A stretch of 64,000 nt of DNA from Streptomyces sp. NBC_00376. Lineage in GTDB: Bacteria > Actinomycetota > Actinomycetes > Streptomycetales > Streptomycetaceae. The stretch is from the NCBI RefSeq assembly GCF_036077095.1, contig NZ_CP107960.1, positions 1,984,001 to 2,048,000 on the forward strand, in the 5' to 3' direction. The position numbers and the translations under genes were made by a program. Positions 793 through 18,348 of this stretch are shown here, one piece after another. Positions within the stretch are counted from its first letter, which is position 1. Each line of letters opens with the position of its first letter. The notes below the pieces were generated by a model. The model was not told the DNA's origin and searched no databases. It saw only the letters and a program-made list of their open reading frames with translations.

Positions 793-2082
793 TCAGCGTT
801 CCGTCTCCAGGACGACCAGCGCGTCGGCCACGGCGCGTTCCTGTACCGGCGCTCCCTGAGCATCCCTGGGCCGGTTGTGGAGCCGCCCGTTCACCACCAT
901 CGTGCTGGAGCCGCCGCCGTCGAGGTTGAGTGCGTCCACCGCCCCCAGCTCGCGCATCAGCTCCGCCGCCTCCCGCAGTGTGACGCCCGCGCTGTCCGGG
1001 CCACGGCCGTCGAAGACTGCCAGGAGCAACGTGCCGTCCGCCTCGATGCCGACGACCGTACGGGGCTGGCGCTCGGCCGATGTGTCGCCGGTGAACCCGT
1101 TGGCCGCGCCGTTGATCCAGGTCTCTCCCCCGCGCAGCAGCGCGGGGCCCGCGCCCAGCACGGACGCTCCCGGGGCGAGGACGTCGTGCCCGCTGCTGTC
1201 CGTCACGCTGGTCCGCCGGCCCAACGGCAGCCCCTGACGTGCGTGCGTCCGCAGCCAGTCGGCGCCCTCCCCGACCCCGGTGAGGGTGGAGCCGGTCCGG
1301 GGGATCTCCCCGCCCGCAGGGCTGCGGAGCGCCGTCACCCGCCCGTCCACGTCGAGCACGGCCTCCGCGCTGCCGGGTGCGCCGGGTGGCGTACGCGCGC
1401 CCCAGTCGGGGGTGAAGGCGACGATCTCGCTGTCGTCCAGGCAGAGTTGGTTGTGCCGGGGCCGCTGCTCCGGCAGCCCCGTACTGGCCAGTCGGTCCCC
1501 GCCCGTGCCTCCGCAGCCGACGATTCTTCCCGGCGCCCGGTTCACCCCGTCCAGTTCGCGCACCGCTCCGTCAGGCGCGGTCAGCCACATCTCGGAACGC
1601 ACTTCGTCGATGCGGGGCCGCTCTCCGGGGCCGGGCAGGATCAGCGCGGTGCGTCCGTTCGCCGCCTCGCTGAGCAGTCGGCCGTCGATGGCCAGAACGC
1701 CCAGCGGATCTCCCGGATAGCCGCTGGAGACGGCGGACCCGACGGTGTCGAAGAAGGAGCCGTTCACCGCAGCCACGGCTCCTTCGCGCCGCGCCGTCCG
1801 GCCGACGGTCTCGGTGGTCGCGAGATGGTCGCCGGCGTCCGGCCTCACCGTGACCCGGGCGGACGGCCGGACGGTCACCGTGCTGATGAGGACCCGCGCC
1901 CCGTCCGCCAGCCGGCGGGTGATCCGCTCCGCCGCCACCCCGCAGCACCCGTCGGCCGACGGGGACGAGCGCGGCGGATCGTCGCGCCTGGCGGGACCTC
2001 GGCCGGTGCACCCGGCGGCCGTCACCCCCAGGACCAGCAGGACCGCGCACCAGCGCACGAGGCGGTCCCGATGCGGTCTCAC
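793..2082 (-). CDS. Lipoprotein with phosphodiester glycosidase (NAGPA-like) domain
   Basis: About 429 residues from GTG 2082, which overlaps the preceding stop by 4 nt. The N-terminus has basic residues, a hydrophobic run (WCAVLLVLGVTAAGC) and a lipobox cysteine, so the protein should be an exported lipoprotein. The rest matches the NAGPA/phosphodiester glycosidase fold: AAVNGSFFDT early, GDPLGVLAIDGRLLS in the middle, and the family hallmark ALNLDGGGSSTMVVNG near residue 390. Family members cleave sugar-1-phosphodiester bonds; bacterial ones are linked to surface glycans. It is the last gene of the run that begins with the CDP-alcohol phosphotransferase, which suggests trimming or remodelling of a phosphodiester-linked surface polymer. 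The substrate is not known. Confidence 0.85.
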   Translation of the reverse strand: MRPHRDRLVRWCAVLLVLGVTAAGCTGRGPARRDDPPRSSPSADGCCGVAAERITRRLADGARVLISTVTVRPSARVTVRPDAGDHLATTETVGRTARREGAVAAVNGSFFDTVGSAVSSGYPGDPLGVLAIDGRLLSEAANGRTALILPGPGERPRIDEVRSEMWLTAPDGAVRELDGVNRAPGRIVGCGGTGGDRLASTGLPEQRPRHNQLCLDDSEIVAFTPDWGARTPPGAPGSAEAVLDVDGRVTALRSPAGGEIPRTGSTLTGVGEGADWLRTHARQGLPLGRRTSVTDSSGHDVLAPGASVLGAGPALLRGGETWINGAANGFTGDTSAERQPRTVVGIEADGTLLLAVFDGRGPDSAGVTLREAAELMRELGAVDALNLDGGGSSTMVVNGRLHNRPRDAQGAPVQERAVADALVVLETER

Positions 2083-2822
2083 GGTGCCGGTGCCCAGCCT
2101 CCGAGCACGCCGGGCGTCACGCCGAGGTCCCCGACATGAACGGTCACCCGGCCGGAGACCAGGCGGCCGCCACCGGCGTCCAGCACGTAGTCGAACCAGT
2201 CGTAGCCCAGATGACCGTTGAACGGGTGGTACGTCACCGCTCCGTCCACCTCGACACTCGTCACCCCGTGCCGGGCGGGGCCGACCCCGACCAGCCTGAC
2301 GTCCTCGCCCATCCCGGCGGTGAAGTCGGTCAGCACTCCGCGGTGTCCGGGGACCACCGTCATGCTCCGTCCCTGCGGGGGCAGCGAGGCGATCCGGAAG
2401 CCGTGGTTCTTCAGGGAGAACGTGGTGGAGGTGAGACCCTTCCCGCCGTCGGCGATGATGCCCGCCCGCAGGACGGGGACGAGGAAGGCGTCGGGCGCGA
2501 CGTGCCGGTTCACCCGGAGCGAGAACCTGGCGACGCGCTCGACACCAGGGTCCGTCGATGTCGCGTACCGGTCGCCCGAGGTCAACAGGCTCATTCCGGC
2601 CATGTTCTCGATGGTGGCGACCTTGTCGAACGAATCGGCCATGAGATACCCGTAGTAGCGGGTGCCGTCGCCCTGCGGGGTGAGGATCCATTCGAAGTCG
2701 ATCCGCCGGCCGGGCTCGACGGGCAGCCGGGGATCCGCGGAGGACCGCAGCTCCATGTGCGCCACGACCGAGGGGTTGTCCTGCTGGACGCTGCGCATTC
2801 CGGTGAGGGTGAAGGTGCTCAT
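2079..2822 (-). CDS. Ig-like/beta-sandwich hypothetical protein
   Basis: A 247-residue protein without an evident signal peptide. It is rich in beta-strand-like alternation. The last 45 residues (TYHPFNGHLGYDWFDYVLDA, then a Val-rich strand ending HVGDLG) follow the pattern of a bacterial Ig/cadherin-like repeat (TYTPxxGFxGxDSFxYxVxD, then TVTVTV). The preceding 200 residues match no family I recognise. The gene lies 13 nt downstream of the SGNH hydrolase gene and overlaps the NAGPA-like lipoprotein gene by 4 nt (GTGA). It is therefore probably translated with both and may act in the same surface-glycan process. The absence of an export signal in a protein with this fold is odd. Confidence 0.65.
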   Translation of the reverse strand: MSTFTLTGMRSVQQDNPSVVAHMELRSSADPRLPVEPGRRIDFEWILTPQGDGTRYYGYLMADSFDKVATIENMAGMSLLTSGDRYATSTDPGVERVARFSLRVNRHVAPDAFLVPVLRAGIIADGGKGLTSTTFSLKNHGFRIASLPPQGRSMTVVPGHRGVLTDFTAGMGEDVRLVGVGPARHGVTSVEVDGAVTYHPFNGHLGYDWFDYVLDAGGGRLVSGRVTVHVGDLGVTPGVLGGWAPAP

Positions 2823-2835
2823 GATCGTCCGACTC

Positions 2836-3639
2836 TCAGTTCGAGCCCAGCGTGCGTGACCTGGTCAGTTCGGCGTGTGTCTCCTCGTCGAGCCAGCTCA
2901 CCCACTCCGGAGGAAAGTCCGCGCGGTCGAGGTTGACGGCCCAGTGCGGTGGGACGATCCGCTGCTCCACCAGCGCGTAGGCGACATAGCGCGCGCACGC
3001 GATGGCCCCCTCCGGCGTCATGTGGCCGGGGTCGTGGAACCCCTCCGCGTAGTTCGGGTGTTCCCCCGGCTCCAGGTGGATGAAGAAGGGGCGCACGCCC
3101 TCCGGGCCCAGCCCCTCCCACCAGCCGTGGGTCTGGTCGTAGAGGTTGACGTAGGGAACGCTGCACTCGGCCGCGAGGTCGCGCATCGCCATCACGTACT
3201 CCGTGATGCTCCTCGGCAGGTTGCCGTGCACATCGTGGGTGTCCCGTTCCGGCGGGCTGATCAGCACCGGATGGGCGTTGCGTTCGCGCGCGCCGTCGAC
3301 GAACTTCCGCAGGTGGTGCGGGAAGTCGCCGTACGCCTCCGTACGGAGCCACTCCTCCGGCTTGGCGTCGTTGATGCCGAACGAGGTGAACAGGTAGTCC
3401 CCGGGGCGGATGTTCTGGAGGATCCAGTCGAGCCTGCCCCGCTCGCTGAACGTGCGGGCGCTCGCTCCGGCCCGCGCGCAGTTGACGATCTCCACCTCCT
3501 GCGAGCTGAGGAAGAAGTGGAGCACCTGGCCCCAGCCCGTCATGGGCGCCTTGCTCGCTTCCCGCGTCACCGCGGCGGAGTCGCCCGCGAGGAAGATCCG
3601 GCGGGGCCTGCCCTGCTCGGGACTCCAGTCAGACAGCAC
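2836..3639 (-). CDS. SGNH/GDSL hydrolase (acetylesterase-like)
   Basis: 267 residues from GTG 3639, overlapping the 3' end of the large glycosyltransferase gene by 11 nt. An upstream in-frame extension exists but lies inside that gene. The SGNH blocks are visible: block I FLAGDSAA with the catalytic Ser, a block II-like Gly in RAGASART, block III FGINDAKP with Asn, and block V DPGHMTPEG carrying the Asp and His. The spacing and the F-x-DPGH context resemble rhamnogalacturonan acetylesterase-type SGNH enzymes, which remove O-acetyl groups from polysaccharides. No signal peptide is seen, so it may act on cytoplasmic precursors. Its place right after a TagF-type polymerase suggests acyl editing of the same glycan. 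Confidence 0.85.
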   Translation of the reverse strand: MLSDWSPEQGRPRRIFLAGDSAAVTREASKAPMTGWGQVLHFFLSSQEVEIVNCARAGASARTFSERGRLDWILQNIRPGDYLFTSFGINDAKPEEWLRTEAYGDFPHHLRKFVDGARERNAHPVLISPPERDTHDVHGNLPRSITEYVMAMRDLAAECSVPYVNLYDQTHGWWEGLGPEGVRPFFIHLEPGEHPNYAEGFHDPGHMTPEGAIACARYVAYALVEQRIVPPHWAVNLDRADFPPEWVSWLDEETHAELTRSRTLGSN

Positions 3640-6600
3640 GGTCCCACCCGTTCTCGTACGTTCCCCGGCCGGCCGTGTCCAAAGCCGCCGCGCCGTCGTC
3701 CGGTACGCCGCGCATGTCGTCGTCCCGGTGCGCACGGGTGGCGGGCAGGGCGGCGACGGGGCCGGAGGGGCCGAGGTCGGCGGCGCTCGCCGTTCCCAGG
3801 GCATCGATCGCCTCGTAGACGCGCTCGGAGTTGCCCGCGCCGCGGTGCGCGAAGAAGTATTCCGCGCGCTCGCGGTACGGGCTCTCGACGGTGAATTTCC
3901 TGGCCATCGAGGCGATGATCTCGTCGACGGCCTGGTCGACCGTACGGCAGACCGGGCCGAAGCCGTGCTCCGTCAGGTTGAAGTAGCCCCGCTTGTAGTG
4001 CCGCCCGTAGAAGTCCTCCTCGTCGAAGGGCACATGGACGAGGGGGATCCCCATGTAGGCCACGTCGAAGAAGACGGAGGAGTAGTCCGTGACCATGAGG
4101 GAGCACTCCTTCATGGCTTCCTGGACGTTGCGCGTCCCGGGGTCGGCGACCTCGATCGCGGGGGAATCGAGGTGGAAGTGGTGCAGGTAGGGCCGGATCT
4201 CGTAGTGCGGGAAGAACTCCAGGTCGACGCCGAAGTGCTCCAGGGCCGCGGCGAGACGCCGGTCGGAGAGCAGCGACCGGTAGAACCGGAAGTACTCGGA
4301 CTGGGTGAAGGAAGTCTTGGCCGGACCCACGGACTTCTTGTAGGAGGCCGTGACGATCCACTGCCGCCAGGTCGGCATGAGCAGGATGCGCGGACGCTCC
4401 CCCGGCTCCCGTCGCAGCGCGTCGAACCTGGGCATGCCCGCCAGCACCGCGCGGTCGCCGAAGCCGGCCTCGCGCGCCAGGTAGGCGCGCTCCTGACGGC
4501 CGGTGGTCACGATCATGTCGTAACTGGTGATCCGCTGGTCCGCACCCGAGGTCACGTCGTTGTAGGTGACTCCGTGCTGCAGGAAGACCCGCTGGTACTT
4601 CAGCAGCTCACCGAACCGGTGCAGGAAGAGCACCTTCCGGTAGCCCTCGGGCAGCAGGTACGACTCGGAGTCGTACGAGCCGATCAGCTTGGTCGCGTGC
4701 AGCAGATACATCCGGTGCTTGAAGGAACCGCGCTTGATCACCCGGCCGTAGGGGGCGACCTTCTTGTAGTCGGGGGAGTTCCCGTCGATGACGTAATACG
4801 CCTTGCGGCGCTTGCGGTGGGTCCTCATCCACTTGAAGAAGTGGTACGAGTTGTCCTGGGCCGTGTCCGACCGCTCGCCGATGAGCCAGATCTCACGGGA
4901 GTTGAGGAACGGGTACATGAGCCAGTAGGCGAGGCGCATGCGCCAGCCCGGGTTGCGGGTCTTGAGGATGCGTATCTCGCGGGCCGTCCGCCACAGGGCG
5001 TGCCTGGCCCGCGCGACGGGCTTCCGGTCGATCAGCCGCAGGTGCAGCGCGTCCTGGCCGCCGATGGTCAGCATGTAGGGGTGGCCGGCGATCCGGCCGG
5101 GGCCCTTGAGCCGGTGCAGCGGAAGGCGTGCCTTCATGACGACGTTGCGCTGCCGCGAGCGGTCCACGCGGTGCACCCGGAGCCGGAAGTCACCGACCCC
5201 GAATCCGCTGCGCGTCAGGTCCTTGACCGGGACCTCCGCGTACCAGCCGGCGTACAGGTCGCGGCCGTTGCGGGTGTTCCACAGGTCGCGGCGGGCGACC
5301 TGGCGCAGCGGTACGGCGATCTTGGCGTGCGCGGTCTGGTAGACGAACTCGAGTTCGTTCTCCATGGGGCCGCTGATGTCCATGCCTGGGAAGGCCAGAC
5401 AACCCTCCACGACCAGCACGTCGCCCCGGGTACGGACCGACTCGACGACGACGTTGGGGTCGTTGACGCGGGCGGTCCGGGTGTTCTGAGTGCCGCCCGG
5501 GAAGGTCCGGTGGAAGCCTTCGTCGTCGATCTCCAGCGCCAGCGGGGCGTTCTCCAGCGCCGGTTCCGGGTTGCAGAAGAGCTCGAAGTTCCCGCTCTTC
5601 GCCGCGTAGTGGTCGAGCTGCTGGGCGGAGGTGGTGGCGTATTCGAGGATGACCTCGTCGGCTATCTGCGCGTAGTGGCGGCAGATGCCCGGGAAAATCT
5701 CCTCCAGCTGCGTCCGGCCCATGACGTTACGGGCGTTGCACAGGAAGCCCTTGTAGGTGCGGGTCGCATAGCGCTGGAACATGTGCCGGATGTCGGCCCG
5801 CTCGGTGGCGGTGTAGTCCAGCAGGAAGTGATTGAGCCGCAGGTGGTCCCGGTAGTTCGCCGGCTTGCTCCACAGCGAGTCCATGATGGAGGACCCGTCG
5901 GGGCGCCCGCGGTAGTAGTACACCGGGCGGTCGACCAGGCTGATGGCGTTGGCCCGCAGCATGCTCGGCAGGGTCACCCAGGCGTCCTCGAAGTGGACCC
6001 CTTCGCCGAAGCGCACCCCGAGCCGGCGCAGCAGCTGGGTGCTGAACAGCTTGTTGCACGCGGATCCGCTGAAGATCAGGTCGGGTACGGAGGCGAAGTC
6101 GTCGAAGACGCGGTCGCCCTGGCCGAAGTACTGCTTCCACGGGCCGTAGGGCCGGTCGGGGAAGTTCACCAGGTCGCCCACGACCAGCTCGGAGCCGTCC
6201 CGCCAGGCCGCCTGGAGCATGTGCGACAGGGCCCGCTCGCCGAGGATGTCGTCGGAGTCGAGGAAGGTGACGTACGGCGCGGTGACCCGGTCCAGGCCGT
6301 TGTTCCGGGCGTTTCCGAGTCCGCCGTTGGTCTGGTGGACGACCGTGACGTTGGCGTAGTACTGCGCGAAGTTGTCGAGGATCCGGGGTGTCTCGTCGGT
6401 GGCGCCGTCGTCCACCAGAATGACCTGGGTGGCGGCGAAGCCTTCCTGGGCAGCGATCGAGCCGAGGCAGTCGTCCAGGTACTTGGCCACGTTGTAGCAG
6501 GGCACGACGACGGCCATCTCGAAGGGATGGTCCAGGCGGGAGATCGGCGGGTGGATCCGGTCGCGCCACCACATCCACGGCGCGTCGGGGTCGTTCTGCG

Positions 6601-8182
6601 CGGACTCGAAGGACTTGCGGCCCGCCGTGGCGGCCCGCAGGGCGAGGTTGCCGCTGATCGTGCGGTAGCCCTCCTGCTCCTCCCCGTTCGCCAGGAAGGT
6701 CAGCCCGGAGAGGTCCACGTCGCGCACGTTGAGCGGGGAGCGGGACCTGGCCCGGTTCCACTCGACGACGACCGACACGTTCCAGACCGTGCTCTCGGAG
6801 AAATCGTCGCCGAGGACGGCGGGCAGGTCGACGGTGCCGCCGAAGCCGACGAACCGTTCGTCGATGTCGACGCCGTCGATCGGGACGGTGACGTCCTTCT
6901 TCGTGTGGCGGTTACGTACTGCCAGCGTCAGCTTGAGGTCGTGTCCGGGCTCGATCCGCCCGAAGCGGTTGACCAGCCTGCCCTCGAACCGGAGCTTCCC
7001 CTCGTCCACGGACCACTCGTCGAGCTGGGCGAAGAGCGGTTCCTGGGCGAGCTTGGCCGCCGAGAGGCCGAGCTCCGTCACATCGAGCATGCGCCGGGCG
7101 TCCGGCAGGTGCAGATGGTCGCCCGACCAGTACACCCGGCCGTCCTCCTCCACGAGGAAGGACGACAGCACGCTCTTGCGCTGCATGTAGTCGAGCGTGG
7201 TGAGCGCGGCCTCGATCTCCTGGTACATGACGAGGTAGGCCCTGACCCGGTCGACCGGGTCGCACAGCTCGAACGCCTCGTCGCTGATGGAGAAGAGGTA
7301 GTTGCTCGCGATCTCGGCGAACCCCTGCTGGAACTCCGGGTCGCCCTCCGCGAGCGCCCGCATGTACAGGCGCAGGTCGTGGGCGAGGAACTTGGAGTCC
7401 TTGCGGACCTTGAGCTGCCACAGGCCGCGGTCTAGGAGGAACGCGTCGGTGGCGCGGTGCACCGCGACCCGGTCGCTGATGGAGCGCAGCTCGCCCGTGC
7501 GGCCGGTGATCGATCCGCCCTCGGGTTCCCACATCCACCGGTAGACGGGGTCGGTGATGACGGTGATCCCGTCGGCGAGGCAGCCCGCCACGGTGGAGAA
7601 GTACGTGTCCTCGTAGAAGACGCCCTCGGGGAACCAGACCCCGCCCGAGCGCAGGAAGTCCACCCGGTACAGCTTGGCCGCCGCGATCGGGTCGGCCAGC
7701 ATCAGCGGGAACTCCACCAGGCCGGGCACGGTGCGCGCCAGCGCGTACACCTCGGGGGCCCAGCCCTCGCTCTCGCCGGTGGCCCGGTTGACCCGGACGG
7801 CCTTGCCCGCAGTGATGTCGCTGCCGCTCTCCAGCGCACCGGCCAGCAGCAGCTCGCAGGCGCGGGGCGGCAGCTCGTCGTCGGCGTCGAGGAACATCAC
7901 GTACCGGCCGGCGGCCTGCGCGATGCCCAGGTTGCGGGGCGCGCCGACGCCGCCGCTGTTGGTGGGCCGGCGCAGCACGCGGACGCGGCCGTTGGTCCCG
8001 GCGAAGTTCTTCACGACGTCTAGGGTGTTGTCCGTGGAGGCGTCGTCGACGACGACGACCTCGACCAGCTCGTACGTCTGGTTGACGGCGGACTGGAGCG
8101 CCTTGCCGATCGTCGTGGCCGCGTTGTACGCGGGGATCACCACCGTGACCCAGACGTCGGGTGTGTCCTGTTCGTGGTTCAT
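3629..8182 (-). CDS. Tripartite GT2-GT2-CDP-glycerol glycerophosphotransferase (TagF-like) fusion
   Basis: 1517 residues. Residues about 10-240 form a GT2 domain (VVIPAYN, LDADDE near 97). A beta-rich linker follows. A second GT2 domain starts near 552 (VVVPCYN, LDSDD near 640) and is followed by another beta-rich region. Residues about 1090-1450 form a TagF/TarL-type glycerophosphotransferase (HGVTYNDV; TDYSSVFFDVAYMGIPLV). The C-terminal 65 residues are low-complexity. Family knowledge: GT2 enzymes add sugars from nucleotide donors, and TagF enzymes polymerise glycerol- or ribitol-phosphate from CDP-alcohols. The whole could build a glycosylated polyol-phosphate or sugar-phosphate polymer on the cytoplasmic membrane face. 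It overlaps the upstream CDP-alcohol phosphotransferase by ATGA and the downstream esterase by 11 nt. Confidence 0.9.
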   Translation of the reverse strand: MNHEQDTPDVWVTVVIPAYNAATTIGKALQSAVNQTYELVEVVVVDDASTDNTLDVVKNFAGTNGRVRVLRRPTNSGGVGAPRNLGIAQAAGRYVMFLDADDELPPRACELLLAGALESGSDITAGKAVRVNRATGESEGWAPEVYALARTVPGLVEFPLMLADPIAAAKLYRVDFLRSGGVWFPEGVFYEDTYFSTVAGCLADGITVITDPVYRWMWEPEGGSITGRTGELRSISDRVAVHRATDAFLLDRGLWQLKVRKDSKFLAHDLRLYMRALAEGDPEFQQGFAEIASNYLFSISDEAFELCDPVDRVRAYLVMYQEIEAALTTLDYMQRKSVLSSFLVEEDGRVYWSGDHLHLPDARRMLDVTELGLSAAKLAQEPLFAQLDEWSVDEGKLRFEGRLVNRFGRIEPGHDLKLTLAVRNRHTKKDVTVPIDGVDIDERFVGFGGTVDLPAVLGDDFSESTVWNVSVVVEWNRARSRSPLNVRDVDLSGLTFLANGEEQEGYRTISGNLALRAATAGRKSFESAQNDPDAPWMWWRDRIHPPISRLDHPFEMAVVVPCYNVAKYLDDCLGSIAAQEGFAATQVILVDDGATDETPRILDNFAQYYANVTVVHQTNGGLGNARNNGLDRVTAPYVTFLDSDDILGERALSHMLQAAWRDGSELVVGDLVNFPDRPYGPWKQYFGQGDRVFDDFASVPDLIFSGSACNKLFSTQLLRRLGVRFGEGVHFEDAWVTLPSMLRANAISLVDRPVYYYRGRPDGSSIMDSLWSKPANYRDHLRLNHFLLDYTATERADIRHMFQRYATRTYKGFLCNARNVMGRTQLEEIFPGICRHYAQIADEVILEYATTSAQQLDHYAAKSGNFELFCNPEPALENAPLALEIDDEGFHRTFPGGTQNTRTARVNDPNVVVESVRTRGDVLVVEGCLAFPGMDISGPMENELEFVYQTAHAKIAVPLRQVARRDLWNTRNGRDLYAGWYAEVPVKDLTRSGFGVGDFRLRVHRVDRSRQRNVVMKARLPLHRLKGPGRIAGHPYMLTIGGQDALHLRLIDRKPVARARHALWRTAREIRILKTRNPGWRMRLAYWLMYPFLNSREIWLIGERSDTAQDNSYHFFKWMRTHRKRRKAYYVIDGNSPDYKKVAPYGRVIKRGSFKHRMYLLHATKLIGSYDSESYLLPEGYRKVLFLHRFGELLKYQRVFLQHGVTYNDVTSGADQRITSYDMIVTTGRQERAYLAREAGFGDRAVLAGMPRFDALRREPGERPRILLMPTWRQWIVTASYKKSVGPAKTSFTQSEYFRFYRSLLSDRRLAAALEHFGVDLEFFPHYEIRPYLHHFHLDSPAIEVADPGTRNVQEAMKECSLMVTDYSSVFFDVAYMGIPLVHVPFDEEDFYGRHYKRGYFNLTEHGFGPVCRTVDQAVDEIIASMARKFTVESPYRERAEYFFAHRGAGNSERVYEAIDALGTASAADLGPSGPVAALPATRAHRDDDMRGVPDDGAAALDTAGRGTYENGWDRAV

Positions 8183-9474
8183 CCGACGCCCTCTCGATCA
8201 CCCGGGTACCCGTGGTTCGGTGGCATGGCACCGGGGGCGCCGTACACCGGCCGGCCCTGCGCCTGCTGGTCGTACCCCTGCGTCCGGACCTGCTGGTACG
8301 CCTGTGTCATCTGCTGGTACGCCGGCGTCGGAAGCTGCTGGAACGCCTGCGTCGGCTGCTGGTCCGGGGACGGCTGGTCCGGTGCCCCGTACGAGGCGTA
8401 GGGCTCGGGGTACGGCTGGAATCCGGGGTCCTCGTAGGCGGGCGGCGCCTGGAACTCCGGGGCGGAGAGCGGGTCGCCCTGCACACCGCGGCGGTGCCGG
8501 CCCCGGTGGAGGTGGGGGGCGATGGAGCCCGCGCCGGACGGCGGCTCGGCCAGCTCGGCCATCACATGGGTGAAGTCGCGGGTGGAGAGCCAGAACTTGT
8601 ACATGATGATCAGCTCGAAGATCCCCAGCAGGACCGCGGAGATCACCGTGGTCAGGAGGATCTGGCCGATCAGCGGTCCCACGATGAAGACGAACATCTG
8701 GAACTCGATGCCGCTGATGAGGTGCGGCCTGATCCGGCTGCGCAGCAGCGCCTGCCGCACCCGCAGGTACCAGGGGAAGCGGTGCCGGAACTGGGCGTGC
8801 AGGTCGACGACGTGTCCGGCGCCGCCCGCCTGTTCCTTGAGCAGCTCCGCCTCGGACTCGGGGTTCTCCCGCAGCAGGTCCTCCATGAACCGGATCTGCT
8901 GCGCCTCGGGCTCCACCGGGCCATCGGCGGCGGCGGCCGCGCGTTCGGCCTCCTGGCGTTCCCGGGTGACCTTCTCGATCTTTGTCCGCATCGACATGCG
9001 CATCTTGTAGATCTGGAGCGCGTCGACATACCGGAGCATGTCGAGGAAGACGACCATCAGCGCGGCGAGCAGAAACCTTTCATCACCGTTGCGCAGGTAC
9101 TGCCCGCCCATCAGGGCGAGGGCACAGAAGAGCACCCTGATGCGGTCGAAGACGTAGTCGAGCCAGCCGCCGAAGACGGTTCCGTTGCCCTTGAGCCTCG
9201 CGAGCTTTCCGTCGATGCAGTCGAGGATGAAGCTCAGGTGATAGAGCGCCGCACCGATGATCAGGGACTGCATGTCGCCCTTGAGGAAGAACCCGGCGGA
9301 ACCGAGTCCGACGAACAGCGCCGCCCACGTCACACGGTTCGGCGTGATGAAGTTGAACCGCGCCATCACGATGAGCATCCGCGTGGCCACGGGATCGACC
9401 AGGATCACCGTCCACCAGGCGTCACGCTTCTTGCAGGTGAGCTTCTGGACGGCACGCAAGGACAGCTTGGCCAT
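8179..9474 (-). CDS. CDP-alcohol phosphatidyltransferase family membrane protein
   Basis: 431 residues with several membrane spans and the complete signature D-x2-D-G-x2-A-R-x8-G-x3-D-x3-D (DCIDGKLAR, then GGWLDYVFD) near residues 85-110. This is the catalytic motif of enzymes that move a phospho-alcohol or phospho-sugar from a CDP donor to an acceptor. A charged cytoplasmic insert (about 165-215) separates the catalytic part from a later pair of spans. The last 110 residues are a Gln/Pro/Tyr-rich disordered tail (units like QAFQQLP, AYQQMTQ, AYQQVRT). It is the first gene of the synthesis run and overlaps the TagF-type fusion by 4 nt. The likely product is a phosphodiester-linked lipid or polymer primer; the substrate is unknown. 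Confidence 0.85.
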   Translation of the reverse strand: MAKLSLRAVQKLTCKKRDAWWTVILVDPVATRMLIVMARFNFITPNRVTWAALFVGLGSAGFFLKGDMQSLIIGAALYHLSFILDCIDGKLARLKGNGTVFGGWLDYVFDRIRVLFCALALMGGQYLRNGDERFLLAALMVVFLDMLRYVDALQIYKMRMSMRTKIEKVTRERQEAERAAAAADGPVEPEAQQIRFMEDLLRENPESEAELLKEQAGGAGHVVDLHAQFRHRFPWYLRVRQALLRSRIRPHLISGIEFQMFVFIVGPLIGQILLTTVISAVLLGIFELIIMYKFWLSTRDFTHVMAELAEPPSGAGSIAPHLHRGRHRRGVQGDPLSAPEFQAPPAYEDPGFQPYPEPYASYGAPDQPSPDQQPTQAFQQLPTPAYQQMTQAYQQVRTQGYDQQAQGRPVYGAPGAMPPNHGYPGDREGVG

Positions 9475-9590
9475 AACCCCTCAGTCACGAGAACGAAAGC
9501 GGCAGGCCCCCGTCGATCCATACACGGTCAGGGGACATCCGGATGTTCACGAGACTCCCCCGAATCCTTCACATGAAAGATTCACAGACT

Positions 9591-9619
9591 TTATCAAGAA
9601 CTTAACAGGTTTCAGCCAA
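9591..9619 (-). promoter_or_regulatory. Candidate promoter of the surface-glycan gene run
   Basis: On the minus strand TTGGCT (9619-9614) is followed by a 17-nt spacer and TGATAA (9596-9591), a reasonable sigma-70-type arrangement about 115 nt before the CDP-alcohol transferase start. The 182-nt intergenic stretch is clearly richer in A/T than its surroundings. A weak hairpin (GATGGC / GCCATC, about 9623-9650) with a T-run lies just upstream and might terminate the propeller genes. Confidence 0.4.
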
Positions 9620-9656
9620 CCAGATGGCAAAAAAGATCATCAGAGCCATCAAACCG

Positions 9657-11186
9657 TCACACTGTGTGCCAGATATCGAAGTCGAACCCGTCGGACGGTG
9701 ACTCTCGGTGAGAGAGCCTCAGTTGCGATCCAGCCACGAGGGTCGCCAAGGTAACAACCCCAGCGCGATCCCGGACAACTGCGGGCATCACAGCGGAATC
9801 CGCAGGAAGTGCGTTCCACCACACGCCCGCATCCGCCCGGCCCTCGGCGTGCACCCCCACCGCGCAGCTGCCTCCGGGGCCGGACCGGACCAGCAGGGAG
9901 TACGACCAGCCGTCCGCCTCGACGCCCCGGACACCGGTGACCGGTCCCGCACCTTCGTCGGCGCCGCCGAGCGGCACCGGTCCCGTCGCGCCCGGCCACC
10001 AGACACAGGGCTCGTTGGTCCTCGCGTCACGGAAGAGCACCGTCCCCGGCTCGGGCCCGGCCGCCAGGGATCCCGGACGGGGCGAGAACGGCACCGACCG
10101 GTCCTCGGTCCACGCGCCGTCGGGCCCCGAGCGGTACCAGCGCAGCACGGCGGCGGAGTCCCTGGCCCGCGCGAAGAGTTCGACCCCTCCCCCGGCCGTG
10201 GTCACGGTGACGAGCTCGTCGGCGACGCGGACGCCGCTCAGATGCTGCCAGGGGGTCCAGACGCCGTCGGCCCCCTGGTGCCGGTAGCTCACGCTGTGCC
10301 CGAAGTTGCGTACGAAGACGAAGAGGCCGCCCGCGCCGTCGAACGCGGCCGCCGGGAAGCCGACCTCCCGGCTGCGGTGCCGGTGGCCGGGGTTCGGGCT
10401 GCCCAGGGAGTGCCACGGGGTGAGCGGGTGCCCGGTACGGTACTGGGTGGCCCGCACCACCGCGACGTCCTCGCCGCCGCCCTTGAGCGGGGTCCGGCGC
10501 AGCGCGAAGAGGTGCGGGAAGCCGTGCGCGTCCCGGACCACCCGAAGGCCGGGCATCAGCCGCGGGCCGGGAAGGAGTTCCGGCCCCTGCCAGGCCGCCC
10601 CCCCGGGCTCGCGCTGCGTCCATCGCACGACGCCCGCCGCGGAGGGCAGGAAGGCGGAGAGCCTGCCGTCGAATCCCTCGGTCAGCCAGTGCGCCGGGTG
10701 CGGATAGCGCGGCTGCGGAGCGGTACCGGGCTGCCCGTCCGCACCGGCGCGGTGACAGTCGACGAAGACCGGGACGCCCGATTCCAGCTGGTGTTCGCGG
10801 GCCGCGGCCAGCGCGGCGAGCGCCGAGTCGGCGTTCTCGGCCGGCTCGTCGTGCAAGGGGACGTCGCGTTCCTGGTCGTACGACACGTGCACCGGATCGG
10901 GGTCCGCCAGGCGCACCCGCTGCGGGCGCAGTGCGCGCAACTCCCGCAGCAGCGCGTCGCCGCCGTCCTGCGTACCGACGGTGCGCGGGGAGCCCGCGAC
11001 CTTGCACCCGCGCCGTTCGGCGTCCGCGAGCGCCCGGTCCAGTGCCGCCCGCCCGTCCTTGCCGTCCTCCTCGACGCAGAGCACGCTGAGCTCCGCGCCG
11101 GCGCCCTCCGCCGCGACGAGCGCCACCGCCTCGCGATGGCGTGCGGCGATGATCGTCACCCGCCGGGCCGGGCCCGTGGCGCTCAT
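9657..11186 (-). CDS. PIG-L-like (degenerate) N-terminal domain plus beta-propeller-like protein
   Basis: 509 residues from ATG 11186, which overlaps the preceding stop by 4 nt. Residues 1-150 align by eye with PIG-L-family deacetylases, including the late DPDPVHVSYD strand that leads to the second metal site and a VFVDCH segment. The family's essential HPDD(E) metal motif after the first strand is replaced by AARHREA, so deacetylase activity is doubtful. Residues 170-509 are repeated Trp/Gly-rich strands (WTPWQHLSG, VRWTQREPGG) typical of sialidase-like or lectin-like beta-propellers, and they are paralogous to the neighbouring gene. No signal peptide is seen. A surface-glycan-binding role is an inference from context. 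Confidence 0.65.
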   Translation of the reverse strand: MSATGPARRVTIIAARHREAVALVAAEGAGAELSVLCVEEDGKDGRAALDRALADAERRGCKVAGSPRTVGTQDGGDALLRELRALRPQRVRLADPDPVHVSYDQERDVPLHDEPAENADSALAALAAAREHQLESGVPVFVDCHRAGADGQPGTAPQPRYPHPAHWLTEGFDGRLSAFLPSAAGVVRWTQREPGGAAWQGPELLPGPRLMPGLRVVRDAHGFPHLFALRRTPLKGGGEDVAVVRATQYRTGHPLTPWHSLGSPNPGHRHRSREVGFPAAAFDGAGGLFVFVRNFGHSVSYRHQGADGVWTPWQHLSGVRVADELVTVTTAGGGVELFARARDSAAVLRWYRSGPDGAWTEDRSVPFSPRPGSLAAGPEPGTVLFRDARTNEPCVWWPGATGPVPLGGADEGAGPVTGVRGVEADGWSYSLLVRSGPGGSCAVGVHAEGRADAGVWWNALPADSAVMPAVVRDRAGVVTLATLVAGSQLRLSHRESPSDGFDFDIWHTV

Positions 11187-12289
11187 ACCCGGCTCCAGTC
11201 TCCGAGGGTCAGCCCCTGGCCGTCCTCCTGGCGTGCGACGGCCAGTGAACCGTCGGTGCCGAGAGCCGCGACGACCGCCCTTCCGTAGCCGTCGGCCGCC
11301 AGTGCCGGGTCTCCGGTGCAGCTCATTCCGGTGCCGGTCCACCAGAAGCCGGACTGCTCGCCCTCGGTCGCGCAGACCCCGAGGTTGACCGTCCCGTCGG
11401 CCCCGCGGACCGCGAGTACCGTGCAGTCGAAGCCGTCCACCGTCGTCCGGACCGCGGCGATGCGGCCGTCCCCGGGGTTGCCCCCCAGCGGTACGGGCCA
11501 GCTGCCCGCCCGGACCGCGACCACACCCCCGCCCCGCGCGTCGGTCAGGTAGTACGTCAGCCGGCCCGGGGCGGTCTCCAGCGCGGTCACCGATCCGGGC
11601 AGCGGAGGCACGGCCGCGTCGTAGCCGCGCACGAAGGCGCCGCCCGGCTCCGGCTGCCGGAGCTGGAGGGCCGCGGTACGGGTGGGGACGAGGACCTCCA
11701 CCAGGCCGGACGAGGTCGCCGCGGGCGCCGGGCCGTCGGTGGCGCCGGACACCTGGAGCTGGGTCCAGGCCTCCCAGCGGCCGCGCTTGTCCTCGCGGCG
11801 CAGGGCGACTCCGCCCGGTCCGGTCGGGACACAGACGTGCAGCGCGCCGTCGCCGGTGACCGCGGCGGCCGGGACGCCCGTCTCGACCGCCTTGTCGATC
11901 TCCTTGAACGGATTGCCCAGCGAGCGCCACTGCGTCATAGGGCGGGCCGTCTGGTACTGCGTGGCGTACATGATGTCCACGTTCGTCCAGCCGTCGGCCC
12001 GGGGCCGGACCCGGCGCCCCAGCAGATGGGCGTAACGATTCTGCCCCTGCACCACGGTGAGCCGTTCGATGTCCTTCGCGGGCAGGACGTCCGGTCCCGT
12101 CCACCGCCGGCCGCCGGGGGCGGACTCGGTCCAGCGCAGCACGGCGCCCTCGACGTGGACGTACGCGGTCAGTCTGCCGTCATGTCCGGTCAGCAGCCAG
12201 GGGCCGCCGAGGGCTCGGTCGAGCTGTGCGGAAGCCTCCGCCACCGACTCGTTCCGCTGCTTCGCTTCACGTGGGGAGGCGCTGCGCAT
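11183..12289 (-). CDS. Beta-propeller-like hypothetical protein
   Basis: 368 residues with no recognised catalytic motif. It is composed of repeated strands such as VLRWTESAPGGRRWTGPDVL and MYATQYQTARPMTQWRSLG. These match, segment by segment, the C-terminal half of the gene it overlaps by 4 nt (VVRWTQREPGGAAWQGPELL; RATQYRTGHPLTPWHSLG), so the pair arose by tandem duplication. The start at ATG 12289 has only a distant GGGAGGG upstream. TATGAT at 12355-12350 on the minus strand is a plausible -10. The gene sits between galE and the glycan synthesis genes. A carbohydrate-recognition role is likely but unproven. Confidence 0.65.
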   Translation of the reverse strand: MRSASPREAKQRNESVAEASAQLDRALGGPWLLTGHDGRLTAYVHVEGAVLRWTESAPGGRRWTGPDVLPAKDIERLTVVQGQNRYAHLLGRRVRPRADGWTNVDIMYATQYQTARPMTQWRSLGNPFKEIDKAVETGVPAAAVTGDGALHVCVPTGPGGVALRREDKRGRWEAWTQLQVSGATDGPAPAATSSGLVEVLVPTRTAALQLRQPEPGGAFVRGYDAAVPPLPGSVTALETAPGRLTYYLTDARGGGVVAVRAGSWPVPLGGNPGDGRIAAVRTTVDGFDCTVLAVRGADGTVNLGVCATEGEQSGFWWTGTGMSCTGDPALAADGYGRAVVAALGTDGSLAVARQEDGQGLTLGDWSRV

Positions 12290-12372
12290 CGCTGTTCGTC
12301 ACCCTCCCTGTGAGCAGGCCCGTGCAGGTCACGGGTGCTGGATCGAGACATCATAAACAAGCCATGGCATGC

Positions 12373-13383
12373 TCAGGTCGAGCTGGTGGCGGTGGCGGTC
12401 CGACGCGCACCGGGGTGCCTCAGGCACCAGCCCTCCCACGCGGAGGCGACCATCTCGCGGGCGTCGTGCCGGGCGGACCAGCCCAGTTCGGTACGAATCC
12501 GGTCTGCCGAGGCGACCACCCTGGCCGGGTCGCCCGCCCTGCGCGGCGCCGAGACCGGGGCCGCCTCGGCCCCGTACCCCGTCACGTCACCGATCAGTTC
12601 GATCATCTCGCGCACCGAGACGCCCTCGCCGCGGCCGATGTTGACGGTCAGGTCGGTGCCCGGCTCCCTGTCGAGGAGGGCCCGCGCGGCGGCGAGGTGG
12701 GCCGAGGCGATGTCGTCGACGTGGATGAAGTCGCGTACGCAGGTGCCGTCCGCGGTGTCGTAGTCGTCGCCGAAGACCACCGGGGCCTCGCCGCGCGTCA
12801 GCTTCTCGAAGACCATGGGCACCAGGTTGTAGACGCCCGTGTCGGCGAGGGCGGGGGTGGCCGCGCCCGCCACGTTGAAGTACCGCATCGAGGCGGTGGC
12901 GATGCCGTGCGCCTTTCCGGCCGCGCGCACCATCCACTCGCCCGCCAGCTTGGTCTCGCCGTAGGGGTTGATCGGGGCGCACGGGGTCGTCTCCGTGACG
13001 AGTCGCACATCGGGCATGCCGTAGACGGCCGCCGACGACGAGAAGAGGAACGCCCGCACCTCGCTGTCGGCCGCGGCCTCCAGCAGGGTCTGCAGTCCCT
13101 GCACGTTCTCCCGGTAGTAGAACAGCGGGCGCTCGACGGACTCCGCCACCTGCTTCTTCGCGGCGAGGTGCACCACCCCGCGCACCCGCAGCTCCGCCAG
13201 GGTGCTCCGCAGCAAGTCCGCGTCGAGCGTCGAGCCCTTGATGAACGGTACGTCGGCGGGCAGACGCGAGCGGTCGCCCGTCGAGAGGTCGTCGTACACG
13301 GCGACCCGCTCACCGGCCTCGCTCATGGCACGGACGACATGCGCCCCGATGAAACCGGCCCCACCCGTGATCAACCAAGTCAT
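12373..13383 (-). CDS. galE: UDP-glucose 4-epimerase
   Basis: 336 residues. An extended SDR with the Rossmann motif GGAGFIGAHVV at residue 7, the FSSSAAVYG segment carrying the catalytic Ser, and the catalytic NPYGETK (Y-x3-K). RYFNVAGA and VRDFIHVDDIA are GalE landmarks. It interconverts UDP-glucose and UDP-galactose (or the GlcNAc/GalNAc pair), supplying sugar donors in the cytoplasm. The start at ATG 13383 is preferred to the longer frame because TACTAT lies exactly 6 nt upstream on the minus strand and there is no Shine-Dalgarno, which suggests a leaderless mRNA. It lies directly upstream of the propeller and glycan genes, so a dedicated role in precursor supply is likely. Confidence 0.9.
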   Translation of the reverse strand: MTWLITGGAGFIGAHVVRAMSEAGERVAVYDDLSTGDRSRLPADVPFIKGSTLDADLLRSTLAELRVRGVVHLAAKKQVAESVERPLFYYRENVQGLQTLLEAAADSEVRAFLFSSSAAVYGMPDVRLVTETTPCAPINPYGETKLAGEWMVRAAGKAHGIATASMRYFNVAGAATPALADTGVYNLVPMVFEKLTRGEAPVVFGDDYDTADGTCVRDFIHVDDIASAHLAAARALLDREPGTDLTVNIGRGEGVSVREMIELIGDVTGYGAEAAPVSAPRRAGDPARVVASADRIRTELGWSARHDAREMVASAWEGWCLRHPGARRTATATSST

Positions 13384-13389
13384 GAACGA

Positions 13390-13395
13390 ATAGTA
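13390..13395 (-). promoter_or_regulatory. -10 element of leaderless galE promoter (candidate)
   Basis: TACTAT on the minus strand is separated by 6 nt from the galE ATG. This is the TAnnnT plus 6-7 nt spacing typical of actinobacterial leaderless transcripts. The divergent LCP gene has its own candidate -10, TATAGT, at 13458-13463 on the plus strand. Confidence 0.5.
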
Positions 13396-13564
13396 ATTCG
13401 GGCTGCTCAGATCATGATTCCGGGGCCCAAAACACCCATTCGCACGATCCTCTGTTCTATAGTGCACGCTCAGTCATGCACGCACGGACCGGCCACACCC
13501 CCCACCCGAGTCCCACGCACTCCACAGCCCACCCCGGGCCACGAGATTTGAGGACTCGACCACG

Positions 13565-14671
13565 ATGAGCCACGACGCCATGTCCCAGGGCACGCGCGAA
13601 GGCCGTTCGGCGTCACATGGCGGCGGGCGGAAGCGCGGGGAAAGCCCTCGCAAGCGCCGCCGCGGCCTCAAGATCACCCTCGGTGTCCTGCTCGTCCTGC
13701 TGCTCGCGGGCGGCGGCACCGCCTACTGGCTCTACAGCCGCCTCGACGGAAACATCCAGGGCGTGGACATCGACGAGGCGCTCGGTGAGGACCGCCCCGA
13801 GAAGCTGCCGACCAGCGGCCAGAACCTGCTGGTGCTGGGCTCCGACTCACGGGCCGGTGCCGAGAACAAGGAACTGGGCGGCGGCGGTGACGTCAGCGGC
13901 GCCCGGTCCGACACCGCGATGGTGGTCCACATCCCCGAGGGCCGCTCCAAGGCGGTCGCGGTGTCCATACCCCGCGACACCCTGGTGACCCGGCCCGAGT
14001 GCACCAAGGCGGACGGCTCGACGGTGCCGTCGGCGAACCGTGTGATGTTCAACTCCGTCTACTCGCAGGTCGGTCCGGCCTGCGTGGTCAAGACCGTCGA
14101 GAAGATGTCCGAGGTCCGGATCGACCACTACCTGGAGATCAACTTCGCCGGGTTCAAGGATCTGGTGGACGCCATCGGGGGCGTCACGGTCGATGTCCCG
14201 CAGGACATCCACGACAAGTCGTCCGGCCTCGACCTCACCAAGGGCTCGCACAAGCTCGACGGCACCGAGTCCCTCGCCTACGTCCGTACCCGCCACGGCA
14301 TCGGGGACGGCAGCGACCTCGGACGGATCGGGCTCCAGCAGCAGTTCCTGCTCGCCCTGCTGAGCGAGGTCAAGTCGCAGGACCTGCTGGGCAGTCCGAC
14401 CAAGTCCTACAAGATCGCCAGCTCGGCCACCAAGTCGCTGACCACCGACGAGGAGCTCGCCTCGCTCAAGTCCCTCGCGGAGTTCGGCCGGTCGATGAAC
14501 GGCGTGGACCCGGGCACCATGGAAACGATCATGCTTCCGGTGGCGTACGACAAGCAGGACCGCAACCGCGTGGTGGCGGCCCAGCCGCAGGCCGACGACC
14601 TCTGGAAGGCCATCCGCAAGGACGCCACGATCCCGGAGTCCGCGAAGAAGTCCCCCGCCACCGGCGGCTGA
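13565..14671 (+). CDS. LytR-CpsA-Psr (LCP) family wall-polymer ligase
   Basis: 368 residues. A short Arg/Lys-rich cytoplasmic N-terminus is followed by one membrane span near residues 36-57 and an extracellular LCP domain. LCP landmarks are LLVLGSDSRAG, RSDTAMVVHI, SIPRDTLV and the arginine-containing loop RTRHGIGDGSDLGRIGLQQQ, which bind the polyprenyl pyrophosphate. LCP enzymes transfer undecaprenyl-linked glycopolymers onto peptidoglycan, or onto arabinogalactan in relatives. Here it is divergent from galE and next to genes for a phosphate-containing glycan, so it is a natural candidate for the attachment step. The start at ATG 13565 has GAGGA about 10 nt upstream. Confidence 0.9.
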   Translation: MSHDAMSQGTREGRSASHGGGRKRGESPRKRRRGLKITLGVLLVLLLAGGGTAYWLYSRLDGNIQGVDIDEALGEDRPEKLPTSGQNLLVLGSDSRAGAENKELGGGGDVSGARSDTAMVVHIPEGRSKAVAVSIPRDTLVTRPECTKADGSTVPSANRVMFNSVYSQVGPACVVKTVEKMSEVRIDHYLEINFAGFKDLVDAIGGVTVDVPQDIHDKSSGLDLTKGSHKLDGTESLAYVRTRHGIGDGSDLGRIGLQQQFLLALLSEVKSQDLLGSPTKSYKIASSATKSLTTDEELASLKSLAEFGRSMNGVDPGTMETIMLPVAYDKQDRNRVVAAQPQADDLWKAIRKDATIPESAKKSPATGG

Positions 14672-14732: not shown

Positions 14733-16244
<1,512 letters not shown>

Positions 16245-16396
16245 CGGCGTACCTCCACGCACTCGTCGTGTACGCCATGATTGGGACCGCACCCGCGGCC
16301 CAGCGCGCCGGAACGGGCGATTTCACGCGAATGGGCCGGACGGACCACCCGTACAGGGTGACCCGACCGGCCCATCGGTCGTATCGGTGTCCGCCA

Positions 16397-16419: not shown

Positions 16420-18348
16420 TCAGTCGCGGGCGGGTTCGATCACGGAACGGCTGTCGGCAGCGCTCTCGAAGCGGCCGTCCAGCTTGGCCACGAGGCCGGT
16501 GACCTGGCGGGCGATGTCCGGCGCGGTCAGCCCGATCTCGGCCATGACCTCCTTGCGGGAGGCGTGGTCGAGGAAGCGCGGCGGGATGCCGAAGTCACGC
16601 AGCGGTACGTCGACCCCGGCGTCGCGCAGCGCCTGGGCGACGGCGGAGCCGACGCCGCCGGCCCGGCTGTTGTCCTCGACGGTGACGACGACCCGGTGCT
16701 GTTCGGCGAGCGGTGCCATGGCCTCGTCGACCGGCTTGACCCAGCGCGGGTCGACGACGGTCGTCGAGATGCCCTGGGCCTCCAGCAGATCGGCGATCTC
16801 CAGGCACATCGGGGCGAGCGCGCCGACGGAGACCAGCAGGACGTCCGGACGGGTGGTGCCGGGCTCGCGCAGCACATCCATGCCGCCGACCCTGCCGACG
16901 GCCTTGACCGCCGGGCCGACCGCGCCCTTGGAGAAGCGGACCACCGTCGGTGCGTCGTCGACCTCCACGGCCTCGCGCAGCTGGGCGCGGACCTGGTCGG
17001 CGTCGCGCGGGGCGGCGATCCGGAGCGTGGGCACGCACTGGAGGATCGACATGTCCCACATGCCGTTGTGCGAGGCGCCGTCGGTGCCGGTGACACCGGC
17101 CCGGTCCAGGACGAAGGTCACACCGCACTTGTGCAGCGCGACGTCCATCAGGACCTGGTCGAAGGCGCGGTTGAGGAAGGTGGCGTACACCGCGAAGACG
17201 GGGTGCAGTCCGCCGGTGGCGAGGCCGGCCGCGGAGACCGCGCCGTGCTGCTCGGCGATGCCGACGTCGTAGATCCGGTCCGGGAACGCCTTCTCGAACT
17301 TGGTCAGGCCGACCGGCTGGAGCATGGCCGCGGTGATCGCGACGATGTCCTCGCGCTCCTTGCCGAGCTTGACCATCTCCTCGCCGAACACGGAGGTCCA
17401 GTCGAGTCCGGAGGTGGCGACCGGGAGGCCGGTGTCGGGGTGGATCTTGCCGACGGCGTGGAAACGATCCGCCTCGTCGAGCAGGGCGGGGGTGTAGCCG
17501 CGGCCCTTCTCGGTGAGGCAGTGCACGATGACGGGTCCGCCGAAGCGCTTGGCGCGCTGGAGCGCGGACTCCAGGGCCTCGATGTCGTGGCCGTCGATCG
17601 GGCCGACGTACTTCAGACCGAGGTCCTCGAACATGCCCTGCGGGGCGATGAAGTCCTTCAGCCCCTTCTTGGCGCCGTGCAGCGTCTCGTACAGCGGCTT
17701 CCCGACGACGGGGGTCCGCTCCAGGAGGTCCTTGCCGCGGGCCAGGAACCGCTCGTAGCCGTCGGTGGTCCGCAGCGTCGCGAGGTGGTTGGCGAGGCCG
17801 CCGATGGTCGGCGCGTAGGAGCGCTCGTTGTCGTTGACGACGATGACGAGCGGGCGGTCCTTGGCGGCCGCGATGTTGTTCAGCGCCTCCCAGGCCATGC
17901 CGCCGGTGAGCGCGCCGTCACCGATGACCGCGACGACGTGGTCGTCCTTCTTGAGGACCTCGTTGGCCTTGGCGAGGCCGTCGGCCCAGCCGAGGACCGT
18001 GGAGGCGTGCGAGTTCTCGATGACGTCGTGCTCGGACTCGGCCTGCGAGGGGTAGCCGGACAGGCCGCCCTTCATCTTGAGCCTGGAGAAGTCCTGGCGG
18101 CCGGTGAGCAGCTTGTGCACGTAGCTCTGATGGCCGGTGTCCCAGAGGACCTTGTCCTTCGGTGAATCGAAGACCCGGTGCAGGGCGATGGTCAGCTCGA
18201 CCACACCCAGGTTGGGGCCGAGGTGGCCACCGGTCTTCGATACGGCGTCGACCAGGAAGGTCCGGATCTCTTCGGCGAGCTGGTCCAGCTGCTCGGGAGT
18301 GAGCCGGTCCAGGTCACGCGGTCCACCGATGCGGGTCAGCAGAGCCAC
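16420..18348 (-). CDS. dxs: 1-deoxy-D-xylulose-5-phosphate synthase
   Basis: 642 residues from GTG 18348, with AAGGAGG 5 nt upstream; the longer open frame is upstream noise. It condenses pyruvate and glyceraldehyde-3-phosphate with thiamine diphosphate, the first step of the MEP isoprenoid pathway in the cytoplasm. The TPP motif [16 protein letters not shown] is near residue 150. Further landmarks are [14 protein letters not shown] with the conserved His at the N-terminus, YVGPIDGHD, the pyrimidine-domain GIAEQHG, and [13 protein letters not shown] in the C-terminal domain. Length and motif order are standard. Isoprenoid supply also covers the polyprenyl carrier used by wall-glycan assembly. 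Confidence 0.97.

Follow-up and report, generated by a model that had tools for sequence, protein, structure and literature searches.

A probable wall-glycopolymer cassette at an apparent genus-wide exchange site in Streptomyces

What does a compact run of genes in a Streptomyces chromosome build, and why does it stand where it does? The run occupies positions 793-14671 of the window, the whole 64,000-nucleotide stretch of DNA analysed here (Streptomyces sp. NBC_00376, NZ_CP107960.1, positions 1,984,001 to 2,048,000, forward strand), and it holds a 1517-residue fusion of two GT2 glycosyltransferase domains and a TagF-like phosphotransferase. We consider it probable, at roughly 60%, that this is a wall-glycopolymer cassette making a phosphate-linked sugar polymer and lodged at a genus-wide exchange site. 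An earlier, sequence-only reading had called it a surface-glycopolymer locus, which gene content, homologies and linkage with the fusion support. To it are added here the GgaB-like character of the fusion, the PLL-lectin fold and the exchange hotspot. The locus is real and coherent, and is best read as one allele among several at a site where surface-polymer genes are exchanged. All genes of the run are open, eight on the minus strand and the LCP gene on the plus strand, and open reading frames, Pfam and NCBIfam bear out the genes, order and strands first listed:

793..2082, minus strand: NAGPA-type phosphodiester glycosidase (NAGPA), lipoprotein-like N-terminus, NLDGGGSS motif; PF09992, 136.4 bits, cut-off 25
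2079..2822, minus strand: immunoglobulin-like (Ig-like) protein, without hydrophobic N-terminus; Big_9, 24.5 bits, cut-off 23.6
2836..3639, minus strand: SGNH hydrolase, without hydrophobic N-terminus; PF13472 (Lipase_GDSL_2)
3629..8182, minus strand: GT2-GT2-TagF-like fusion, 1517 residues, C-terminal part GgaB-like; Pfam Glycos_transf_2 twice plus Glyphos_transf
8179..9474, minus strand: CDP-alcohol phosphotransferase (CDP-OH-P), active-site motif complete; PF01066
9657..11186, minus strand: propeller 2 (prop2), degenerate PIG-L-like N-terminus (about 1-150) and PLL-lectin propeller (about 155-509)
11183..12289, minus strand: propeller 1 (prop1), PLL-like, without hydrophobic N-terminus; PF26607 precomputed on homologs
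12373..13383, minus strand: galE, UDP-glucose 4-epimerase, probable start 13383; TIGR01179, 309.8 bits, cut-off 262.3, and Pfam Epimerase
13565..14671, plus strand: LCP ligase, assigned to the conserved frame and not to the cassette; PF03816 (LytR_cpsA_psr)
14733..16292, minus strand: amino-acid permease, conserved flank, in 57 of 61 genus genomes
16420..18501, minus strand: dxs, conserved flank, adjoining the permease in relatives

Along the minus strand the order is galE, prop1, prop2, CDP-OH-P, fusion, SGNH, Ig-like and NAGPA. The packing had been described as overlaps of 4-11 nucleotides or small gaps. The overlaps stand (4 nucleotides for prop1/prop2, CDP-OH-P/fusion and Ig/NAGPA, 11 for fusion/SGNH), as does the 13-nucleotide gap between SGNH and Ig, but the galE-prop1 and prop2-CDP-OH-P gaps are larger, at 83 and 182 nucleotides. 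This gene order is not chance, because the same order recurs in relatives.

The full fusion is present in 11 of 150 genus genomes. Twenty-two genomes with it, our own included, were considered: 15 were taken with wide flanks, five were treated as duplicates of named loci and G246 was left out. The window, 12 Streptomyces loci and the 15 wide-flank loci form a table of 28 fusion loci, in which presence means a tblastn match at E<=1e-6 with one piece longer than 40% of the query; as related genomes are not independent, its counts express linkage and not probability. CDP-OH-P is found in all 28 loci, LCP in 26, SGNH and Ig in 24 each, NAGPA in 20 and galE in 17. Because prop1 and prop2 cross-match in tblastn, prop2 proper was set at >=44% identity, and it is in 25. 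A divergent fusion (44-46% identical) accounts for 12 of the 28 loci, just two of which have galE. The set against which these were compared comprises 43 intervals without the full fusion, namely 23 LCP loci and 20 intervals taken from 20 of the 35 permease-bearing genomes that lack the LCP orthologue (at least 64% identity, the next matches being at most 57%). CDP-OH-P, NAGPA and galE occur in none of the 43 and the fusion in none of the 20, while SGNH is in 3/23 and Ig in 2/23 of the LCP loci. These variable counts for NAGPA, galE and others mean that the full gene set is not obligatory. The sequence-only reading had staked itself on the non-glycosyltransferase genes keeping company; they are largely conserved with the fusion, although NAGPA (20/28) and galE (17/28) are not universal. 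In a genome of another genus (L151), the interval bordered by dxs and fadB holds CDP-OH-P and fusion on one strand and NAGPA, Ig and SGNH on the other.

Could the genes be neighbours without joint function, a glycosyltransferase-phosphotransferase and CDP-OH-P beside independent accessory genes of a hotspot? The occurrence of SGNH and Ig in other cassette types, of PLL-like genes in most intervals, and the non-universal galE and NAGPA would suit such an arrangement. The one-strand order with overlaps of 4-11 nucleotides, the absence of NAGPA and CDP-OH-P from all 43 non-fusion intervals and the company that NAGPA, Ig and SGNH keep with the fusion in L151 argue against it, and we regard it as very unlikely.

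What, then, would the fusion make? Its Pfam domain order is GT2, GT2, Glyphos_transf, that is, a GT-A-type domain joined to a TagF-like domain, and its two GT2 parts contain DADD and DSDD by pattern search. A search with residues 545-1490 gave matches in Streptomyces, Kitasatospora, a Streptosporangiales assembly and Staphylococcus muscae, whose protein P0288 (E 1.4e-123) is named by its source a 'galactosamine-containing minor teichoic acid biosynthesis protein'. Among the records is a fusion of S. avermitilis that is 80% alike. Fusion residues 605-1462 (about 860) align with P0288 end to end over 885 columns at 32% identity (E 8e-140), with colinear GT2, linker and Glyphos_transf homology. 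Three stretches of the TagF-like part, QHG, FPHYE and TDYSS, were inspected; VFLQHGVTYN, FPHYE and TD[YF]SSVFFD are common to the fusion and P0288, whereas two TagF-type proteins in the other TagF cluster of the same genome carry VVQTWHGTPL in place of VFLQHGVTYN. A plasmid tblastn search returned 198 records, with only general names among the 40 listed.

GgaA and GgaB of B. subtilis 168 produce poly(GlcGalNAc-1-P), according to passages of PMC11841062. In Gram-negative TagF-like capsule polymerases, the relevant sections of PMC5974469 have the TagF-like domain moving hexose- or glycerol-phosphate, with the GT-A/TagF-like architecture accompanying poly(oligosaccharide phosphate) and a polyol subset being TagF-like/GT-B. 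Judged from its sequence, the fusion's likely product is poly(oligosaccharide-1-phosphate), which would be a target for a phosphodiester glycosidase, and with two GT2 domains and a single phosphotransferase its repeat could contain as many as three sugars and one phosphodiester. Alternatively, the TagF-like domain might take glycerol phosphate, or the phosphate of another alcohol, from a CDP-alcohol, with the GT2 domains adding sugars and CDP-OH-P serving the same chemistry, to give a poly(glycosyl-polyol phosphate). Pfam and several source names do call this domain a CDP-glycerol glycerophosphotransferase, TagF-like domains can transfer either kind of unit as described in that paper's polymerase passages (PMC5974469), and every one of the 28 fusion loci has CDP-OH-P. 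We nonetheless think it unlikely: the whole-length match and the QHG signature favour the GgaB-named protein over the WHG type, the polyol subset set out in the same passages has the other, TagF-like/GT-B architecture (PMC5974469), and Pfam shows no CDP-alcohol synthase in the cassette.

In the wall-glycopolymer model that we favour, each of the two GT2 domains would add a sugar and the GgaB-subgroup TagF-like domain would use a UDP-sugar to add a sugar 1-phosphate, so that poly(oligosaccharide-1-phosphate) would grow on its lipid carrier within the cytosol. GalE may supply UDP-Gal or UDP-GalNAc. The chain would leave through an exporter encoded elsewhere and, to go by its family, the neighbouring LCP ligase would join it to peptidoglycan; outside the membrane, the NAGPA lipoprotein, if it keeps its family's chemistry, would cleave the polymer's sugar-1-phosphodiester bonds. 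More loosely, CDP-OH-P, always found with the fusion, might make or modify a lipid acceptor or add an alcohol phosphate, and binding or editing of the chain ahead of export might fall to the PLL lectins and the SGNH and Ig-like proteins, none of which carries a clear export signal. All statements on polymer chemistry, and on what CDP-OH-P, the lectins, SGNH and Ig-like protein do, are thus presumptive.

The locus is not self-sufficient. The first reading held that every step from precursor to attachment could be covered, which did not hold up, as the island has no initiating, linkage-unit or exporter gene. TagO-type PF00953 matches three places in the genome and ABC2 exporter-type PF01061 23, none of them in the island, and TagA-type PF03808 has no match in the whole genome. 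One PF01061 place lies next to the genome's other TagF cluster, which is at 5.35 Mb and about 3.3 Mb away.

Pattern searches of the other enzymes agree with their families. NAGPA has a hydrophobic N-terminus, AAGC and NLDGGGSS, and its solved relatives are 6ozd and NAGPA entries; SGNH has GDS, GIND and DPGH, and CDP-OH-P has the full CDP-alcohol transferase motif. The model of the Ig-like protein is of middling confidence (pLDDT, the predicted local distance difference test score, of 78.8), and its structure matches are generic Ig folds. A hydrophobic N-terminus is present in NAGPA and LCP and was not seen in prop1, SGNH or Ig-like protein.

The nearest solved relatives of CDP-OH-P are inositol-phosphate-type enzymes. 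They invite a further alternative, a lipid-anchored lipoglycan, in which CDP-OH-P would make a phosphatidyl-type anchor, the fusion would build on this anchor and LCP would serve other polymers. The constant pairing of CDP-OH-P with the fusion (28/28, and also L151 and L152) and the presence of LCP beside other cassettes and beside none fit this idea. Against it, CDP-OH-P falls far below the cut-offs of inositol-phosphate-type enzyme models (43.7 bits for NCBIfam PIPSynth, cut-off 170, so it is not assigned to that family), LCP is in 26 of 28 fusion loci, and the 20 LCP-less intervals hold no fusion; we judge it quite improbable. Of eight loci with CDP-OH-P relatives, six (L153-L158) have the relative outside the cassette, and in these six no further match to the query set lay nearby.

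Neither propeller matched a Pfam family at the limits used. PF26607 is found on prop1 homologs, including P0103, which is 89% identical, and the C-terminal domain of prop2 has the PLL propeller fold in the test applied. This domain is a PLL-type lectin domain, with putative sugar binding, and prop1 is of the same type. Rows in the VIA search with prop2 lay mainly over residues 137-509. Its N-terminal PIG-L domain was called degenerate at the outset, and alignment and pattern search agree: the HPDD-type and DHxDH metal-binding motifs are lost, and among 48 aligned sequences they are kept in one, the PIG-L-PLL protein P0099. A comparison of prop2 and PIG-L by hhalign, with just four sequences on the PIG-L side, gave 83.9% in local and 54.2% in global mode. 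Prop2 looks like a decayed relative of intact PIG-L-PLL proteins. Fused PIG-L-PLL proteins with intact metal motifs are found in Stealth cassettes at L106:4438-6405, L107:5823-7859 and L108:13543-15513. The one hydrophobic stretch of prop2, from residue 20, lies inside the folded N-terminal domain of the model, and prop2 is likely, if not certainly, cytosolic; none of 120 prop1 homologs passes a crude test for a hydrophobic N-terminus.

Why does the cassette stand here? Its frame is conserved, with dxs, permease and LCP on one side and fadB-thiolase on the other. fadB bounds the gene run about 0.5 kb left of the window (L119), and aconitase lies further off, beyond permease and dxs. The LCP orthologue occurs in 22 genomes of an evenly drawn set of 61 from the genus; the permease is within about 5 kb of it in all 22 and fadB on its other side in 21, the miss being a contig end. 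A fadB piece is likewise found in 26 of the 28 fusion loci; for the window it lies just outside, and L054 is the exception. LCP had been described as divergent and adjoining, which it is; it goes with the conserved flank, since genomes retain it next to differing cassettes and also where there is no cassette. With cassettes typed by Pfam on representatives and by tblastn with those elsewhere, the 22 LCP loci contain the full fusion (4), Stealth (5), c12-Glyphos (3, two with IspD-SDR), GT2-TagF (2), GT2-TagF fragments (1), NeuB with cytidylyltransferase and polysialyltransferase-type genes (2) or no cassette (5). A Stealth gene is also present in five further loci, chosen for GgaB-like genes. 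Two of the 20 intervals without LCP have poly-gamma-glutamate capsule genes, one has a UDP-sugar dehydrogenase with a GT2, and two are shorter than 0.7 kb. The whole looks like a genus-wide surface-polymer exchange site.

Some individual loci are worth recording. At L131:10680-16321 and L138:6415-11810 the permease-fadB interval holds poly-gamma-glutamate genes, PGA_cap being paired with either CapC or a Mur-ligase-type gene. NeuB, cytidylyltransferase and polysialyltransferase-type genes at the permease-fadB site (L109:5486-13355, L116:5572-11587) suggest a Kdn- or sialic-acid-like wall polymer. At L102:12225-13740, between fadB and LCP, GT2-TagF fragments and a phosphatase-type gene are perhaps a decaying cassette. 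The gene obg, which we take to neighbour the ribosomal L21/L27 genes, adjoins a CDP-OH-P, fusion and galE set in L054:4592-14328 and, in another genus, L152:7520-15975, hinting that cassettes are exchanged between two glycopolymer loci, an obg site and a fadB site.

Close relatives show the replacement itself. Between the window and L056 the conserved parts are nearly alike (dxs 95%, permease 96%, fadB 97%, LCP 91%) and the cassettes are not (CDP-OH-P 72%, prop2 51%, fusion 46%); their DNA is 96% identical up to window position -447, 93% from 14746 and 86% across LCP, patches in the intervening part showing 66-81%. Among three further loci (L099, L100 and L101), identity is 96-98% for dxs, permease and fadB and 93-95% for LCP, and each has a cassette of a different type: Stealth, IspD-type and GT2-TagF. 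For L009 and L057, permease and fadB are 98% identical and the fusion 47%. On an unrooted tree of both flanks ('quick' method, 61 rows of a fusion-enriched sample, 10 loci without a flank dropped), 11 cassette labels need 32 changes, against a shuffled mean of 39.6 and with none of 200 shuffles as low, and fusion presence alone needs 13. At the starred branches, at least two changes are forced for each of the ten groups listed. Cassette type thus partly follows ancestry, yet has changed repeatedly. Base composition (G+C 70.2% in the cassette, 68.9-71.1% in the flanks) does not indicate foreign origin.

It is tempting, if doubtful, to see in the dxs-permease-(LCP)/fadB interval a Streptomyces counterpart of a serotype locus. 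Chemically unrelated polymers (oligosaccharide-phosphate, Stealth-type, Kdn-type, poly-gamma-glutamate and uronic) would swap there, those linked to the wall having one LCP ligase in common, driven by phages and by propeller-lectin toxins that recognise surface glycans, and the site's PLL lectins would each check for their own polymer ahead of export or ligation. For another locus, portions of PMC13274773 show that propeller-lectin toxins read the variable glycopolymers of Streptomyces, and argue for an arms race.

Several points weigh against a wall polymer of the GgaB kind at an exchange site. The name of P0288 is its source's annotation, and the GgaB comparison is with this protein and not with B. 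subtilis GgaB. Glycerol phosphate transfer is also possible for TagF-like domains, as passages of PMC5974469 state, so hexose-1-phosphate rests on subgroup and architecture, and a pure GgaB model leaves CDP-OH-P unexplained. NAGPA is missing from 8 and galE from 11 of the 28 fusion loci. The Stealth family are hexose-1-phosphate transferases in the family account of PMC5974469, and the Stealth cassettes here have no NAGPA. The crude N-terminus test is passed by 27 of 99 prop2 homologs, so that the cytosolic place of prop2 is likely rather than certain. PLL-like matches occur in 17 of the 20 intervals without an LCP orthologue, most without recognised polymer genes, which slightly lowers our confidence in both the wall-polymer and the serotype-locus interpretations. 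Lastly, the flank tree, on its fusion-enriched and unrooted sample, does not distinguish gain from loss.

How does the cassette compare with known systems? It shares with GgaA/GgaB of B. subtilis 168 a GT2 plus TagF-like polymerase and a proposed sugar-1-phosphate polymer; it differs in the further GT2 half fused on, in the added CDP-OH-P, PLL lectins, SGNH, Ig and NAGPA, and in having no TagA-family match. The Gram-negative TagF-like capsule polymerases likewise join GT-A-type and TagF-like domains in one polypeptide, with poly(oligosaccharide phosphate) expected from what passages of PMC5974469 describe, whereas here there are two GT2 domains, a Gram-positive wall context and an LCP ligase. 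A classical wall teichoic acid locus keeps initiation, linkage-unit and export genes with its polymerase; here PF00953, PF03808 and PF01061 are outside or absent. Whole-cassette exchange of wall-polymer genes is known from wall teichoic acid swapping in B. subtilis, as parts of PMC8753576 relate, with other genes, genus and flanks; in the present case a chemically different class of capsule is among the alternatives. The utr/TUA loci, in the sections of PMC13274773 that describe them, likewise vary in their glycopolymer genes at one fixed place in Streptomyces, and selection by propeller-lectin toxins is proposed for them, but their anchor is ribosomal L21/L27 and their enzymes are others, whereas the flanks here are dxs, permease and fadB.

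Within Streptomyces, S. coelicolor polydiglycosylphosphate and PdtA, as passages of PMC7831098 and PMC11481543 present them, also pair an LCP ligase with a phosphodiester-linked sugar polymer. That polymer is described there as alpha-linked, and the GT2 domains here are expected to give beta linkages, a distinction drawn from description and not from sequence. pdtA adjoins a nicotinate-nucleotide adenylyltransferase gene in the account of PMC7831098, while the LCP gene here adjoins permease and galE, with dxs beyond the permease; that the window is the pdtA region is ruled out by its permease, dxs and aconitase flanks. A list of LCP proteins in PMC7831098 includes SCO6020. Literature on SCO6020-SCO6025 yielded only this list entry and otherwise enterobacteria. 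The stretch probably corresponds to S. coelicolor SCO5999-SCO6027 and the LCP gene to SCO6020. Open-access literature, most subscription papers lying outside the search, gave no account of this site or cassette, in keeping with the first impression of a probably undescribed combination.

Streptomyces wall polymers are chemically diverse and few have assigned genes. If the fixed exchange site is real, polymer type could be read from the genome, and strains with near-identical flanks and different cassettes would be matched pairs for phage and umbrella-toxin specificity. The site resembles swappable coat-type loci of other bacteria, and the cassette suggests what a phosphodiester glycosidase could concretely do in the chemistry of a bacterial wall.

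Two minor features of the window remain. Between NAGPA and fadB, positions 162-716 hold a gene with a DUF6461 match below cut-off, found in one of the 28 fusion loci, the window itself. Far from the cassette, positions 40429-41835 encode a 468-residue protein with a weak match to the immunity domain CdiI_2 (27.7 bits, cut-off 26.7).

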